This document shows, in pieces, positions 28,152-47,058 of a stretch of 60,026 bases of DNA (positions are counted from its first letter, which is position 1; each line of letters opens with the position of its first letter). Below the pieces are notes generated by a model. It saw only the letters and a program-made list of their open reading frames with translations. It searched no databases and was not told where the DNA came from. Origin of the DNA: a virus. The stretch is from the IMG/VR virus record IMGVR_UViG_3300009448_000013, positions 1-60,026 of that record; one strand, written 5' to 3'. Both the position numbers and the translations under genes were made by a program.

Positions 28152-28457
28152 ATGGCCGATTCGCCGTTCGCGTTGTTCGTTTCCTCTGTCGAGGGCAGCC
28201 TCGTCACCCGGCACGGCACGCGCACGTTCATCGGCGCCACCCGTCGGGCGAAAGAGCCGACGGTGATCGACTGGCAGCCCGATGTCATCGTCGCGATCCC
28301 GCACGATGAATACCGCCGCTATCGGCGGGAGTACGATCGGGCGCTGCGCGACAAGTCGCTCGCCAAGCGGACCGAGGCCGAGTGGCGAGCTCAGAACCGA
28401 CAAGAGGCAAAAGAAGCAAACCAGCAGGGGGCAGGCACGCCCTCGGCGCCGACCTAA
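28152..28457 (+). CDS. Small tail protein in Mu gp38 (DUF2635) position
   Basis: 101 residues from ATG 28152; TTG 28143 and GTG 28149 are also in frame but lack support. TRTFIGATRRAKEPTVIDWQ and IPHDEYRRYRREYDRAL are basic-helical, the tail is disordered. It stands between gp37-like and sheath, where Mu has gp38. Similarity is weak. Confidence 0.55.
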   Translation: MADSPFALFVSSVEGSLVTRHGTRTFIGATRRAKEPTVIDWQPDVIVAIPHDEYRRYRREYDRALRDKSLAKRTEAEWRAQNRQEAKEANQQGAGTPSAPT

Positions 28458-30534: not shown

Positions 30535-30777
30535 GTGTTTTCAGATCTAGAGTGGTTCGAGTTCAGGCAGCTGCCGCCGCACCTGCAAGCGGTGAGCGTC
30601 AAGTTCCGAGCCCTCGCGCTCGACCTCGCCAAGACGCTGCCCGAAAACGAGCAGAGCCGGCGCATGTTCGAAAAGCTGCTCGAGGCGAAAGACTGCGGCG
30701 TGCGCGCCGCCATCAAGGGGGCGGCCAGCATGGCGACGTCGCCCGGCGCCGGCAGCGACGCGGGGGACAAGCCGTGA
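30535..30777 (+). CDS. Acb2/Tad1-like small helical protein
   Basis: 80 residues with a GTG start 12 bases after CGGAGGC. FEFRQLPPHLQAVSVKFRAL, then ALDLAKTLPENEQSRRMFEK and LLEAKDCGVRAAIKG fit the helical hairpin of the Acb2/Tad1 superfamily and its phage relatives ('LPPHLQ..S..F..LA..L...LP.N.ER...L.KLLEAKDAAVRA'). Acb2 and Tad1 bind cyclic nucleotides and block CBASS and Thoeris. Whether this member binds any signal is unknown. It sits between tube and chaperone genes, an odd place for a tail gene. Confidence 0.6.
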   Translation: MFSDLEWFEFRQLPPHLQAVSVKFRALALDLAKTLPENEQSRRMFEKLLEAKDCGVRAAIKGAASMATSPGAGSDAGDKP

Positions 30778-30851
30778 CCCTTCTCCCGTGCAGGCGCCGC
30801 GTGGGCCTCCAAAACCTAACGCGCCGGGTTCAATTCCTGGGCGGGGTGCCA
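30777..30851 (+). tRNA. tRNA-Trp(CCA)-like element with degenerate 5' half
   Basis: The 3' two thirds are tRNA-like: an anticodon loop CTCCAAA (30807-30813, anticodon CCA), a T arm CCGGG-TTCAATT-CCTGG (30824-30840), acceptor strand GCGGGGT, a G and an encoded CCA (30849-30851). The anticodon stem has one mismatch (C-A). The 5' acceptor ACCCTTC pairs with one mismatch, but no normal D arm is seen. It could be a decayed tRNA or a tRNA 3' end carried as an attachment site. Confidence 0.45.
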
Positions 30852-30853
30852 TC

Positions 30854-31474
30854 GTGAGCGAGGACAAGGTCGAGCAGGTGGTGCGCCTCGTCCTCGAAAA
30901 CTGGCAAGCGATCGGGGTGGAAGAAAGCAGCGACGGGTTCCTGCACCTGCCGGCGGCCATCAAGCGGCGCAACAAAGACGGCGGGATCAACGAGGTGCGC
31001 GTGATGCTGCGCAATGTCACGAACCCGCAGCGCTTTCGCGCGCGCACGAGCTCGCGCGAGTGGGCCAAGCGCCTGAACCTGGATCTCGACCGCGACGCCG
31101 ACCTCGTCGACGTCCTCGAAAACTACGAGCTGCTCGCGTTCGCGATTCGCGACGCCGACGACGAGGGTTTCACGCAGCACGCGGCGTGCGGCGAGGACCT
31201 TTACAAGCTTTACGATCAGCAGAGCCTCGGCGAGCTGTGGGGCCGTTACGACGCTTGGGTGCGCATGCTGCACCCGTCGTTCGCCGAGTTCGACGGCGAG
31301 AAGATGTGGCAAATCATCGCGCGTATCAGGGGGCGGGCGGACATCACCCCTTTAGCCGCTATGCCTGGTATCGAGCAGGCCAGTTGCATTCTGCTCATGG
31401 CACGGGAAGCCTGCAACTCTCCGAACGCACCCTCTTGGCTGCGATCGTCAGAGACCTCGACACCGGCGGGCTAA
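30854..31474 (+). CDS. Tail assembly chaperone, unshifted product (Mu gp41-like)
   Basis: 206 residues from GTG 30854. The first 160 look well conserved (VLENWQAIGVEESSDGFLHL, HAACGEDLYKLYDQQSLGEL, WQIIARIRGR); after the G5 run at 31329 the zero frame (PLAAMPGIEQASCILL) loses coding character, while the -1 frame gains it. This is the G-type member of the G/GT chaperone pair that loads the tape measure. Placed between tube and tape measure as expected. Confidence 0.7.
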   Translation: MSEDKVEQVVRLVLENWQAIGVEESSDGFLHLPAAIKRRNKDGGINEVRVMLRNVTNPQRFRARTSSREWAKRLNLDLDRDADLVDVLENYELLAFAIRDADDEGFTQHAACGEDLYKLYDQQSLGELWGRYDAWVRMLHPSFAEFDGEKMWQIIARIRGRADITPLAAMPGIEQASCILLMAREACNSPNAPSWLRSSETSTPAG

Positions 31475-37213: not shown

Positions 37214-37524
37214 TGGCGTGCGCCTACCCGCCGCCGCCGCTGCCGGGGTTCACGCTGCCATTGCCCGCGTTGCCGAGCTTGCCGAGCGTGCCGTCGTTCC
37301 CTGGACTGCCGGCGCTGCCCGGGCTGCCATCGCCGCCCACGCCGCTGTTTGCGATACCGATCCCCGCGCTGCCGAGCTTGCCGAGCGTGCCGTCGTTCCC
37401 TGGACTGCCGGCGCTGCCCGGGCTGCCATCGCCGCCGCTGCCCGGGTTCACGCTGCCCTTGCCCGCGTTGCCGAGCTTGCCGACGCTGCCCGACTTCCCG
37501 GGCGTGTTCTGCCCGATCCCGTGA
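37213..37524 (+). CDS. Pro-Leu repeat protein next to the spike
   Basis: 103 residues (ATG overlapping the previous TGA), almost entirely P-x-L/F-P. A 33-residue unit beginning PSLPSVPSFPGLPALPGLPS occurs twice, with a third partial copy (GFTLPLPALPSLP at both ends). A single Cys lies near each terminus (MACAYP; GVFCPIP). Similar Pro-rich proteins with end cysteines occur beside baseplate genes in other phages of GC-rich bacteria, without known function. A spike-associated extended rod is a guess. Confidence 0.65.
   Translation: MACAYPPPPLPGFTLPLPALPSLPSVPSFPGLPALPGLPSPPTPLFAIPIPALPSLPSVPSFPGLPALPGLPSPPLPGFTLPLPALPSLPTLPDFPGVFCPIP
37271..37436 (+). repeat. 67-bp direct repeat inside the Pro-Leu gene
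   Basis: 37271-37337 and 37370-37436 are identical over 67 bases, 99 bp apart (33 codons, in phase). Identity at the DNA level implies recent duplication or gene conversion. Confidence 0.85.
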
Positions 37525-42942: not shown

Positions 42943-43292
42943 GCGCGGCCGACGAAATCAGCCCGATCGAATACGGGCAGGACCTCATCGTGCTCGCGGT
43001 GAGCCGCGAGACGCCCGTGCCCCGCGCGTTCGAGGCCGTGCTGATCGACGTCGATTATTCGCTCGCCCTGCCCGCCGGCGTCGTGCTGCCGCTCGAATTC
43101 ACGGTCACGAGCGAGAGCGGCGCGGCGACGTTCCAGCGCCGAGTCTTTCGCCGCCTACGGCCGAGCACGCTCGCGTTCGTGCCCCGGGAGGGCGGCAGCC
43201 ATCTCGTGCGGCTTGCCGAGCAGCATCATAACCGGTGGTTCGGAGCCATCACGATCGACGTCGAGGGCTCGCCCCTGAAAGCAGGCAATTAA
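42939..43292 (+). CDS. Beta-sandwich-like fibre protein
   Basis: 117 residues. PRAFEAVLIDVDYSLALPAG, VVLPLEFTVTSESGAATFQR and HLVRLAEQHHNRWFGAITID give another Ig-like strand series, related in design to the previous gene. Probably a structural partner. TAATG overlap with the large fibre gene. Confidence 0.55.
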   Translation: MSAADEISPIEYGQDLIVLAVSRETPVPRAFEAVLIDVDYSLALPAGVVLPLEFTVTSESGAATFQRRVFRRLRPSTLAFVPREGGSHLVRLAEQHHNRWFGAITIDVEGSPLKAGN

Positions 43293-44914
43293 TGGCAAAC
43301 GCGCTGTTCACAATCAACGACGACGCCGACGACGACGGTTACGACGCGACGCCATCCGAGGTGCTCGCGCTGCGGCTCAAGACGTTGCCGCCGGCCGGCG
43401 TCACGAGCGTGCGGTTCCAGATTTGGGACCCCGACGACTTCGACGAGACGCTCGACCCGATCCGCAACCCGCCGCGGCAGAGCAAGGGCGCGCCGCTCCT
43501 CGAGCTCGACAATGGCGTCGCCACGGGCACGAGCCTCTCGCCGGTCGCCATCGACGGCGAGGTCGAGCTCACGCTCGAGGCGAACGTGTTCGTCGCCTAC
43601 ATCATTCGGTGCGTCGTGAACAACGGCATGACGACGCTCGCCGATGGCCGCGTCGTCGTCGACCGGTCGCTGATTCACGAGCGCATGGTCGTCGTGCGCG
43701 AAAACGGCGTGCGCCCGATTGTGGCGACCGAAACCACGCAATACGAGCCCGACGGCTGGGCAGGCGCCTACAACGAGGGCGGGGGCCCGGCTGGCGACGA
43801 CGGCGGGTTTGGCGGCGCGATGTCGATCCCATACGTGTTCAGCACGACGACGACCGACACCGACCCGGGCGCGACGTTCATTCGGCTCGGCAATGCAACG
43901 CAAAACCTGTCGACCGTGATGCGCGCCGATCTGCTCGACGCGAACAACGTCGACGTGACGGCGCTGCTCGCGACGTTCGACGACTCCGCTGCCGGCGTCA
44001 AAGGCATCGCTCGGCTCGTGCATCGCGACGACGACAGTAAGCACCTGCTGTTTTACGTCACCGCGCTGTCGAGCCCGGCGGGATATCGCAACATCACGAT
44101 CGTGCCGATCGGCAGTTCGAGCGCGAGCCCGTTCGTCAACGGCGATCCGGTGGTTCTGTGCTTTGACCCGATGGGCGGCCCCGCCACGATCGGCAAATTC
44201 GACCCGACCGCAGCCGGCGCGATATTCACGTGCAATTTCGATTCGACGCTCATCGACGAGACGAATGCGAACAACCTCGTCGTCGACGCGGGCACCGTCG
44301 ACTTTTGCGAGGGCTGGCCCGGGCGGACGTTCGTGTATGTCGAGACGACCGGGCGCCTGCGCGTGGCAGCAACGCCGGCGCCTGCGGTGCTGCGGCAAGC
44401 GGGCGAGCTCACGATCCATTCGCTCGTTCTGCCCGACGAGGACCCGACCGCCGAGCGCGTGCTCGTCATGTGCGGCGCCGGCGGCGTCGACACCGACACG
44501 GCGAACAACACGCTCTATCAGCAGTCGATCCAAAACGTCGCCGCGCCGCTCTTGCAGCTGCGTGCGTTTCACGAGGAGGCCGCGGGCGCGAACGTCAGTT
44601 ACAACGTGTCGGTGCGCGATCAACGGGCGCGCGTGCCGGTGCTGTGGACTCAGGTTCGGCGGATCTCGGCGGGGCAGGCGTTCTACCAAAACTATGTCAA
44701 CGGCCGCCCTGCAGGCGCCGAGTCGGGGGGGCTCGTGCCGCCCACGGGCGGCGGAAACGCGGTGTTCGTCGTCGCCGCGGCTGGCTCGGGATCGACCGCC
44801 GGGCAGCGCCGAATCATCGGCGGGCAGCAACTCATCGCCGCGGCTCAAACGGCCGCGCAAGTGCTGGCGGTGCACAACCGAGTGATGGGGCCCGCTTTCG
44901 GTTTTTTAGTCTAG
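43292..44914 (+). CDS. Tail fibre/adhesin, unshifted product
   Basis: 540 residues from ATG 43292. N-terminal Ig-like strands (LRLKTLPPAGVTSVRFQIWD), a middle domain with YVFSTTTTDTDPGATFIRLG and a C-terminal domain (CNFDSTLIDETNANNLVVDA, GELTIHSLVLPDEDPTAERV, LQLRAFHEEAAGANVSYNVS) that looks like a concanavalin/LamG sandwich. It ends GFLV at a TAG immediately after TTTTTTA (44902-44908), an in-frame slippery heptamer. The following frame continues without a start, so this is the short form of a two-product gene. Confidence 0.7.
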   Translation: MANALFTINDDADDDGYDATPSEVLALRLKTLPPAGVTSVRFQIWDPDDFDETLDPIRNPPRQSKGAPLLELDNGVATGTSLSPVAIDGEVELTLEANVFVAYIIRCVVNNGMTTLADGRVVVDRSLIHERMVVVRENGVRPIVATETTQYEPDGWAGAYNEGGGPAGDDGGFGGAMSIPYVFSTTTTDTDPGATFIRLGNATQNLSTVMRADLLDANNVDVTALLATFDDSAAGVKGIARLVHRDDDSKHLLFYVTALSSPAGYRNITIVPIGSSSASPFVNGDPVVLCFDPMGGPATIGKFDPTAAGAIFTCNFDSTLIDETNANNLVVDAGTVDFCEGWPGRTFVYVETTGRLRVAATPAPAVLRQAGELTIHSLVLPDEDPTAERVLVMCGAGGVDTDTANNTLYQQSIQNVAAPLLQLRAFHEEAAGANVSYNVSVRDQRARVPVLWTQVRRISAGQAFYQNYVNGRPAGAESGGLVPPTGGGNAVFVVAAAGSGSTAGQRRIIGGQQLIAAAQTAAQVLAVHNRVMGPAFGFLV

Positions 44915-44941
44915 GCCCGTTCCAGCAATCGCTGGACGGGC
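44902..44941 (+). promoter_or_regulatory. -1 ribosomal frameshift signal (T TTT TTA plus stem-loop)
   Basis: The heptamer T-TTT-TTA lies in the correct phase (codons GGT TTT TTA GTC TAG). After a six-base spacer comes a stem of 11 pairs with one bulged T: 44915-44919 and 44921-44926 pair with 44931-44941 (GCCCG, TCCAGC / GCTGGACGGGC), loop AATC. This is the classic arrangement of a -1 signal. Confidence 0.75.
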
Positions 44942-46290
44942 TGCACAGCCACAACGACCAAGAGCAACCAGGCCCGCTCGTCGACGCGCTCGCTCTCGGG
45001 TTCGCGTCGATCGAGGTCGACGTGCACCTGACCGGCGGCGAAATCCGCGCGACGCACAGCTTGCCCGGCACCGCCGGCGTCACGCTCACGTCGCTTTACC
45101 TCGCGCCGCTCGCCGCGATGGATCCCGACGAGCATCCCGCGATGCTTTGCATTGACCTGAAAACGTCGCCGAGCGACGCCCTGTTCACGGCGTGCGTGGC
45201 AGCCATCGCGGCCCACGCCACGTTCAACGACGGGCACGTGCAGTTCGTGTTCACGGGCAATCGCCCCGTCGCGCCGACGGCGCACCCCGCGCACGTCGTG
45301 TTTGGCAGCGGCGGCGGGCCCGTGGCGGCGGCGCTCGTCGACGCCGAGGTCGCCGTCGTCGAGGTCGATTACACGTCGTTTTCGACCTGGAATGGCGTGG
45401 CTCCGATCCCCGACGCCACCAAGCGCACGCTCGTGCAGCTCGCCGACATGGCGCACCGCGCGGGCAAAATGCTGCGCGTCTATTTTGGCCCGGCGACGGT
45501 CACGGCGTGGAACGAGTTCCGCGACGCCGGCGTCGACTTGATCCAGCCCGGCGGGCAACACCCACCGGGTTTCGATAACATCGACCTGCTCGCGCTTTGG
45601 TTCGCCGGGGGGTGGATATTCGACGGCGAGAACGACGGCGTTTCGATCGGCGACGTGTACGACTTCGAGCGCACCGACTCGTTCTCGCTCTCGGGACGGT
45701 TCAACTCGTCGTCGGCAACCACCCAAAACCTCATCGGCAAGACGAGCACGGATACGACGGCGCGCGGCTACATCGTCCAGCTTCGCAGCGACGGCGCGGT
45801 AGGCTTTCAGCTGAACAACGACGTCGCCAGCGGCGTCAATTCGCTCGCTGTGCGAACCACGTCGACCGCGTTCGCCGACGGCCGCGAACACCATTTTCTC
45901 ATCACCTACAACGGCACGAGCGCGCCCGGCGGGGTGGTGATCTACATCGACGGCCAGGCCGAGGCCTTGACGACGATCAACAATTCGCTGTCCGCCACGA
46001 CCGTGCAGAACGATCCGCTCGTGCTCGGAAACCGGCAGGATGGCGCGCGCGCGCTCGCCGGCAGCCTGCGCGAGGTCGCGGTGTGGACGGGTGTCCTCTC
46101 GGCGCTCGACGCGGCAGAGATTCACGACGCGACAGATCTGGACAGCGTTGCCGCCGGCCCTAGCCTGCTGAGCTGGTGGCGCTTTGACGACGACGACCAG
46201 GCCATCGCGAGCGGCGTCGTCGACCAGGGTGGCGGCGGCTTTCACGGCACGCCGTTCGGCGGGCTCGAACCGACGCCGCCCCGCGTCTGA
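44908..46290 (+). CDS. Frameshift extension of the fibre: GDPD/PLC-like plus LamG-like domains
   Basis: 460 residues reached only by the -1 shift (whole product 999). No ATG, GTG or TTG precedes its first conserved motif. LHSHNDQEQPGPLVDALALG, then FASIEVDVHLTGGEIRATHS and LYLAPLAAM match the AIM6/GDPD-PLC-like TIM barrel, with the H-S-H-N-D catalytic region, E-x-D metal ligands and a second His. About 225 residues later a LamG-type sandwich follows (FSLSGRFNSSSATTQNLIGK, HHFLITYNGTSAPGGVVIYI, LVLGNRQDGARALAGSLREV). It would add a lipid- or teichoic-type phosphodiester hydrolase and a sugar-binding domain to some fibres. Confidence 0.7.
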   Translation, partial: SLGPFQQSLDGLHSHNDQEQPGPLVDALALGFASIEVDVHLTGGEIRATHSLPGTAGVTLTSLYLAPLAAMDPDEHPAMLCIDLKTSPSDALFTACVAAIAAHATFNDGHVQFVFTGNRPVAPTAHPAHVVFGSGGGPVAAALVDAEVAVVEVDYTSFSTWNGVAPIPDATKRTLVQLADMAHRAGKMLRVYFGPATVTAWNEFRDAGVDLIQPGGQHPPGFDNIDLLALWFAGGWIFDGENDGVSIGDVYDFERTDSFSLSGRFNSSSATTQNLIGKTSTDTTARGYIVQLRSDGAVGFQLNNDVASGVNSLAVRTTSTAFADGREHHFLITYNGTSAPGGVVIYIDGQAEALTTINNSLSATTVQNDPLVLGNRQDGARALAGSLREVAVWTGVLSALDAAEIHDATDLDSVAAGPSLLSWWRFDDDDQAIASGVVDQGGGGFHGTPFGGLEPTPPRV

Positions 46291-46332
46291 AAAACCCTCA
46301 AGTTCCCCGGGCACAATCCGTTCATGTTCGAC
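46291..46332 (+). promoter_or_regulatory. Leaderless-type promoter element (copy 3)
   Basis: CCCTCAAG (TCAAG from 46298) and GTTCAT from 46320 are 22 bases apart. ATG 46333 is 13 bases after that G. It decides the start of the next gene (46333 rather than 46324) and marks it as an independently expressed cassette within the late region. Confidence 0.55.
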
Positions 46333-47058
46333 ATGAACGGATTGCTGATTGCCCTCGTCGTGCTGCTCACTGCGGTTAACGCGTCCGCTGCCCCAAAGGG
46401 GCACAGCCACAACGACTACGGGCGCGCGGCGCCGCTCGCCGAGGCCATCGCCGCCGGCGTCGCCTCGATCGAGGTCGACCTCGTGTATTCCGCCGGCAGG
46501 CTGCTCGTGTGCCACACGGCCCGAGAATGCTCGCCCGAGCGGACGCTAGAAACACTCTACCTAGCGCCGCTCGCTGCGCTCGGCGCCGACCGCCCCGCTC
46601 GCCTCACGCTGCAGATCGAAACCAAGGTGACGCACCCGAGCCTCGCCGGCGTCGCGATCCCGGGCGTCTTTCACGGCGTGCTCGCGGCGTTCGCGGCGCG
46701 CCCCGAGCTCGCCTCGTGGGTCGATGTCGTATTCATCGGGCAGCAATACTACCCGCCGCCCGCGCCCACGCCGGCGGGGTTCTCGTTTCGCGCCGACCCC
46801 GACACGGGTCTCGTGTCCGTTGAATGGCCGTTTGCGTGGGAGGGGCATGGCGATATGCCCGCCGCCGATAGGAGCGCACTCGAGCGTCTCGTCGACGACG
46901 CGCACTCGAGGGGCGCCCGGCTGCAGCTCTCGACGCACCCGATCGAGCTGTCGGGCGACGTCGTCGCCGTGTGGGATGCTCTCGCCGACGCTGGCGTCGA
47001 CACCATCAGCACCGACGATCCGTTGCTGTTCGCCGCTTGGCGCGCCCAAACGTTCTGA
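46333..47058 (+). CDS. Secreted GDPD/PLC-like phosphodiesterase
   Basis: 241 residues from ATG 46333, set by the upstream promoter; ATG 46324 would add three residues. MNGLLIALVVLLTAVNASAA is a signal peptide. Mature start KGHSHNDYGRAAPLAEAIAA, then GVASIEVDLVYSAGRLLVCH and ERTLETLYLAPLAALG parallel the barrel fused to the fibre upstream. A C-terminal ISTDDPLLFAAWR completes the barrel as in AIM6-type proteins. It would act in the periplasm or outside, on phosphodiesters of lipids or polymers. Its monocistronic control suggests a moron expressed apart from the virion genes. Confidence 0.7.
   Translation: MNGLLIALVVLLTAVNASAAPKGHSHNDYGRAAPLAEAIAAGVASIEVDLVYSAGRLLVCHTARECSPERTLETLYLAPLAALGADRPARLTLQIETKVTHPSLAGVAIPGVFHGVLAAFAARPELASWVDVVFIGQQYYPPPAPTPAGFSFRADPDTGLVSVEWPFAWEGHGDMPAADRSALERLVDDAHSRGARLQLSTHPIELSGDVVAVWDALADAGVDTISTDDPLLFAAWRAQTF

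Follow-up and report, generated by a model that had tools for sequence, protein, structure and literature searches.

The locus described here raises the question of whether a phage can arm only a part of its tail fibres with an enzyme by shifting the reading frame at the end of the fibre gene. In an uncultured tailed phage, represented by a 60-kb IMG/VR virus record of 68% GC that was analysed over its full length of 60,026 nucleotides (the window), the ORF of a tail fibre ends at a slippery heptamer and a putative hairpin, and a second coding sequence without a usable start codon continues in the -1 frame (Table 1). Judging from these features, -1 ribosomal frameshifting that yields a fibre of 540 residues and a minor, enzyme-bearing fibre of 999 residues is the reading that we consider rather probable.

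Table 1. Features of the fibre locus in the window
Feature	Coordinates	Strand	Basis
Tail fibre ORF, 0 frame, 540 aa (P0003)	43292..44914	+	ORF call and homology
Fibre parts: N-terminus at the baseplate end (aa 1-165), repeat of tail-fibre type (aa 178-297), unassigned C-terminus
Slippery heptamer T_TTT_TTA, in phase, one sense codon before TAG	44902..44908	+
0-frame stop TAG	44912..44914	+
Putative stimulatory hairpin, 12 bp, 1-nt bulge, AAUC loop	44914..44942	+
-1 frame extension, 460 codons, without usable start codon	44908..46290	+	ORF and coding statistics
AIM6-like GDPD/PI-PLC superfamily TIM barrel (HSHND, SIEVD, THS, IDLK, TGNR)	44935..45570	+	alignment, AF2, fold match
LamG / concanavalin A-like lectin domain (PF13385)	45622..46107	+	Pfam 1.9e-16
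Second copy of GDPD-like enzyme, own ATG, signal-peptide-like N-terminus, 40% identical to first	46324..47058	+

The fibre gene and its setting

Tail sheath, tape measure and baseplate J genes are all encoded in the window, and the phage is therefore contractile-tailed. The fibre gene is located a few genes behind baseplate J, and its product combines this baseplate-proximal gene order with a fibre-type domain, as residues 178-304 match the annotated tail fibres of the Pelagibacter phage HTVC010P and of MW202476. In relatives, the nearer of which were collected via searches with baseplate J and the fibre N-terminus, residues 1-165 are kept behind baseplate J with an identity of 45-60% in nearer and about 30-45% in further relatives, and the C-termini are unrelated. 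With the N-terminus kept in this position and the middle repeat common to annotated tail fibres, the assignment as a fibre stands, and the gene product is a fibre whose baseplate end is constant and whose other end is exchanged. The AF2 model of the 540-residue fibre was unusably poor (pLDDT 40).

The -1 frame as coding sequence

The -1 frame is free of stops from 44167 to 46290. The codon-usage optimum places the end of the fibre at 44887 and the beginning of the -1 segment at 44914, and GC3 shifts from the 0 frame to the -1 frame at the junction, such that a strong coding signal is directly observed for an ORF devoid of its own start. The nearest upstream standard start in this frame lies 90 codons before the coding segment, in a stretch with non-coding statistics, and the next one downstream is the GTG at 45022, behind the HSHND and ExD motifs. 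Initiation at this GTG was rejected, as these first catalytic motifs would be missing. The earlier note's description of a 460-residue continuation with no start before its catalytic motif was thus confirmed by ORF scan, codon usage and GC3, and its two products of 540 and 999 residues (539 + 460) from one gene are supported, as a prediction, by the anatomy of the sequence.

For metagenome contigs with a homopolymer at the critical site, a misassembled or misread T run has to be considered, but such an error is highly improbable. The contig 3300025123_000007, which differs by two SNPs in 21.6 kb (at 28296 and 34299 only), shares the T run, stop and extension with the window. As a second, non-identical contig carries the same junction, a one-off assembly error is unlikely; the two contigs may stem from related samples, so their agreement is support, not proof. 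Equally, the codon-usage scan of the window showed no other similarly long coding segment as far from a start.

The enzyme and the lectin-like domain

The extension is, by sequence and model, predicted to be a complete GDPD/PI-PLC-like barrel with its active-site residues kept, followed by a LamG domain. Its first 220 residues fall into a broad bacterial family of the GDPD/PI-PLC superfamily with the motif HAHNDYEH, which we take, judged by this motif, to be AIM6-like and which has confirmed relatives in at least 462 genome stretches. The HSHND, ExD, H and D-x-K motifs on a TIM barrel place the extension in the AIM6-like branch, the identity to AIM6-like bacterial proteins being about 25-35% with every motif block present. 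In an alignment with 20 homologues, H14, H16, N17, D18, E37, D39 and H51 show no variation and D84 and K86 very little, and the extension has retained all of them. AF2 models a confident barrel (pLDDT about 90 for most of residues 11-210) whose first strand starts at residue 12, so that the entire enzyme domain, with its onset about ten residues past the shift, lies behind the shift. In the PDB, the fold is matched best by a GDPD-fold phospholipase; PLC-delta1 is another match, and the scores of several further TIM barrels are close behind. The TM-scores are modest because the query included the poorly modelled second half. LamG is recognized with 61 bits against a gathering score of 27.6. Motifs, barrel and Pfam match therefore support the proposed enzyme and lectin-like domain, with the phosphodiesterase now refined to an AIM6-like member of the GDPD/PI-PLC superfamily.

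At the curated Pfam cut-off, classical GDPD (PF03009) has no match in the extension, and the second copy of the enzyme scores below this cut-off. A tblastn search of INPHARED phages gave no match to the extension or the second copy, a distant viral scan with a 21-row family alignment confirmed zero virus relatives, and a fold search of BFVD yielded no meaningful match. The AIM6-like (HAHNDY) proteins sampled are nearly all stand-alone bacterial proteins, and no other virus match was found. The second copy adjoins the extension and seems to have arisen by tandem duplication or by a second capture.

The junction

The 0-frame codons at the fibre end read GGT TTT TTA GTC TAG, and the heptamer upstream of the stop conforms to X_XXY_YYZ in the 0 frame. 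The in-phase T TTT TTA near the end of the fibre ORF was thus correctly described, with the exception that the distance to the ORF end is six bases (44908 to 44914) and not seven. TTTTTTA occurs as a single copy in the window with both strands counted, and TTA is a rare codon (9 uses among 17,638 codons). With 12 in-phase X_XXY_YYZ sites (Y = A/T) in the window, the expectation for any stretch of 10 codons is about 0.007. The stem-loop behind the heptamer was also found, though it folds with 12 pairs and one bulge instead of the claimed 11 pairs; its spacing of 5-6 nt falls within the 5-9 nt of stimulatory structures. The hairpin is exceptional to a modest degree only, with z = -2.9 against dinucleotide shuffles and rank 34 among 1334 local segments for its 45 nt; when the extension was shuffled synonymously, 10 of 1000 versions folded equally well (p about 0.01). 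The predicted junction peptide GFF-SLGPFQQ holds for a single slip (FGFF-SLGPFQQ), but a double slip would mainly give FGFL-SLGPFQQ.

Reassignment of the stop codon was ruled out, as TAG ends 11 called genes and the frame would stay unchanged. A tail-chaperone frameshift was sought at 30535-31474 as a positive control, and no canonical heptamer was found near the end of the first ORF there; neither a tRNA scan nor an Rfam scan gave a match.

On this anatomy, we infer that most ribosomes would stop at the TAG to release the 540-residue fibre, while a minority would pause at the hairpin when UUU is occupied by Phe-tRNA and UUA by Leu-tRNA, move back by one base on U_UUU_UUA and read 460 further codons. 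The resulting 999-residue fibre would carry the GDPD/PI-PLC-like phosphodiesterase and LamG, and its incorporation into virions would give mixed fibres, through which the baseplate would display the enzyme sub-stoichiometrically. The enzyme may cleave a surface polymer or lipid that contains phosphodiester bonds, and the LamG domain may bind glycan. With respect to the shift ratio, the form favoured in Escherichia coli is H_HH.U_UU.Y, the efficient U-rich motifs having U or C as their last base (PMC4066793). U_UU.U_UU.A is absent from the published list of efficient motifs, which was obtained for E. coli and may not be that of the host (PMC4066793), and U_UUU_UUA is expected to be a weak shifter in bacteria. 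A low ratio is therefore anticipated, as would befit a minor form that bears the enzyme; poly-T slip sites exist in phages (PMC12846349). That the phage thereby controls how many fibres of a virion are armed with the enzyme, with most fibres as binders only and a minority that bear the phosphodiesterase and a further lectin domain on the same stalk, is a tentative proposal that we consider possible, if just short of probable.

A homopolymer followed by a hairpin could alternatively cause slippage of the RNA polymerase, leading to a mixture of mRNAs of which a part would be in frame for the extension. This is very unlikely, as T6 is short for transcriptional slippage in bacteria, and the A at its end and its in-phase position are more in keeping with ribosomal slippage.

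The main rival to frameshifting is a fixed indel in a fused gene: a real one-base change in or near the T run could have broken a fusion, or the module could have been newly inserted out of frame, with the extension unmade or made only in in-frame variants by a poly-T phase switch. We regard this as unlikely, yet as a serious candidate. An indel in the T run would yield exactly the -1 relation, single-ORF fibres of 880-1000 residues occur in relatives, and the second, intact enzyme gene downstream could render the extension redundant; the cassette that follows the N-terminal part of the fibre is, moreover, highly mosaic, and a broken gene is plausible because this region turns over quickly. 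Against it, the 460 codons show neither a stop nor a decay in codon usage, the active-site residues are retained, a pattern scan permitting 5 to 8 T recovered the T6 form alone, and an in-phase heptamer with a well-spaced hairpin at the break is not predicted by chance. Rescue by frameshifting of modules that land out of frame has been put forward (PMC5009743), an idea that would agree with a mosaic fibre cassette.

Homologous fibres

The comparison set comprised 16 homologous fibres, each of which (16/16) is encoded by one ORF, with lengths between 170 and 1320 residues. None of the 16 possesses a comparable slippery heptamer at its end or carries the enzyme of the extension, and the start-less extension is kept in no relative examined. 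The arrangement in the window is therefore a singleton. The earlier note had proposed conservation of the heptamer in homologues as a check, an expectation which was disappointed, with the site identical only in the near-identical contig 3300025123_000007; conservation, which in silico would be the strongest evidence of recoding, is thus lacking here. Neither did any relative examined hold both parts in one frame, the case which the earlier note had named as speaking against frameshifting.

In three relatives (L013, L120 and L121), a coding ORF in the -1 frame starts exactly at the fibre stop with its own ATG or GTG (ATGA/GTGA overlap), coding for a LamG protein in L013, an unassigned protein in L120 and an S15/S9-type hydrolase in L121. 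The slot behind the fibre therefore repeatedly houses binding or enzyme genes, and start-stop overlap, not frameshifting, seems from the sequences to be the usual solution among the relatives. The same geometry could argue for the extension as a separate protein, made by termination-reinitiation at a non-standard CTG (44932 or 44941) and coupled to fibre translation. We consider this improbable, since the three relatives use ATG or GTG, neither of which is present there in the window, a Shine-Dalgarno-like sequence is missing, CTG 44932 sits within the hairpin, and a start at GTG 45022 would forfeit HSHND and ExD.

Some relatives display arrangements of separate interest. The hydrolase gene of L121 (16529-17707), which overlaps the fibre stop by GTGA in the -1 frame, is a possible fibre-linked enzyme. 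Two tandem fibre genes with a common N-terminus and differing C-termini are found in L011 (15656-18784) and L020 (7001-8830). In HTVC010P (L008, 6812-7186), the tail-fibre domain repeats of gp22 run into the overlapping gp23 in another frame, possibly reflecting a split or recoded fibre.

Known systems and implications

Frameshifting adds C-terminal Ig-like domains to capsid or tail proteins in T3 (gp10), Lactobacillus phage A2 and Listeria phage PSA (PMC5009743). As would be the case here, one virion protein gene gives two products and the minor form gains a C-terminal module by a frameshift near the stop, but the proteins concerned are capsid or tail tube components with non-enzymatic Ig-like domains, unlike a baseplate fibre with phosphodiesterase and LamG. 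In the 936 lactococcal phages, a programmed frameshift extends the major tail protein by TpeX, a host-binding carbohydrate module (PMC6669499). There, as would be the case here, only a part of the copies gains the module; the protein extended by TpeX, however, belongs to the tail tube, gains a binding module only and is found in many phages, whereas the present case concerns a fibre, adds an enzyme and is a singleton. Enterococcus phage 9183 has a baseplate adhesion protein, BppU-GDPD, that likewise carries a C-terminal GDPD (PMC10194240), but it is described as one protein with a classical PF03009 domain, no frameshifting and no LamG, in contrast to the AIM6-like branch of the extension.

A literature search for a frameshifted tail fibre or a frameshift-added fibre enzyme found none among open-access texts, in which absence weighs little. 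The claim of novelty consequently survives for the combination of fibre, enzyme and frameshifting and not for its components: as frameshift-added domains and a baseplate GDPD are each documented, the novelty is narrower than first stated, a new combination and not a new kind.

If true, frameshifting would tune the dose of a receptor-cutting enzyme relative to plain receptor binders in one fibre set, and recoding would reach beyond decorations of capsid and tail tube to the enzymes of host recognition. Start-less ORFs behind phage fibre genes may then be fibre extensions lost by annotation pipelines. As a minor observation, the tail region of the window also harbours an imperfect repeat (37232-37483; 153 bp, 82% identical, offset by 99 bp).
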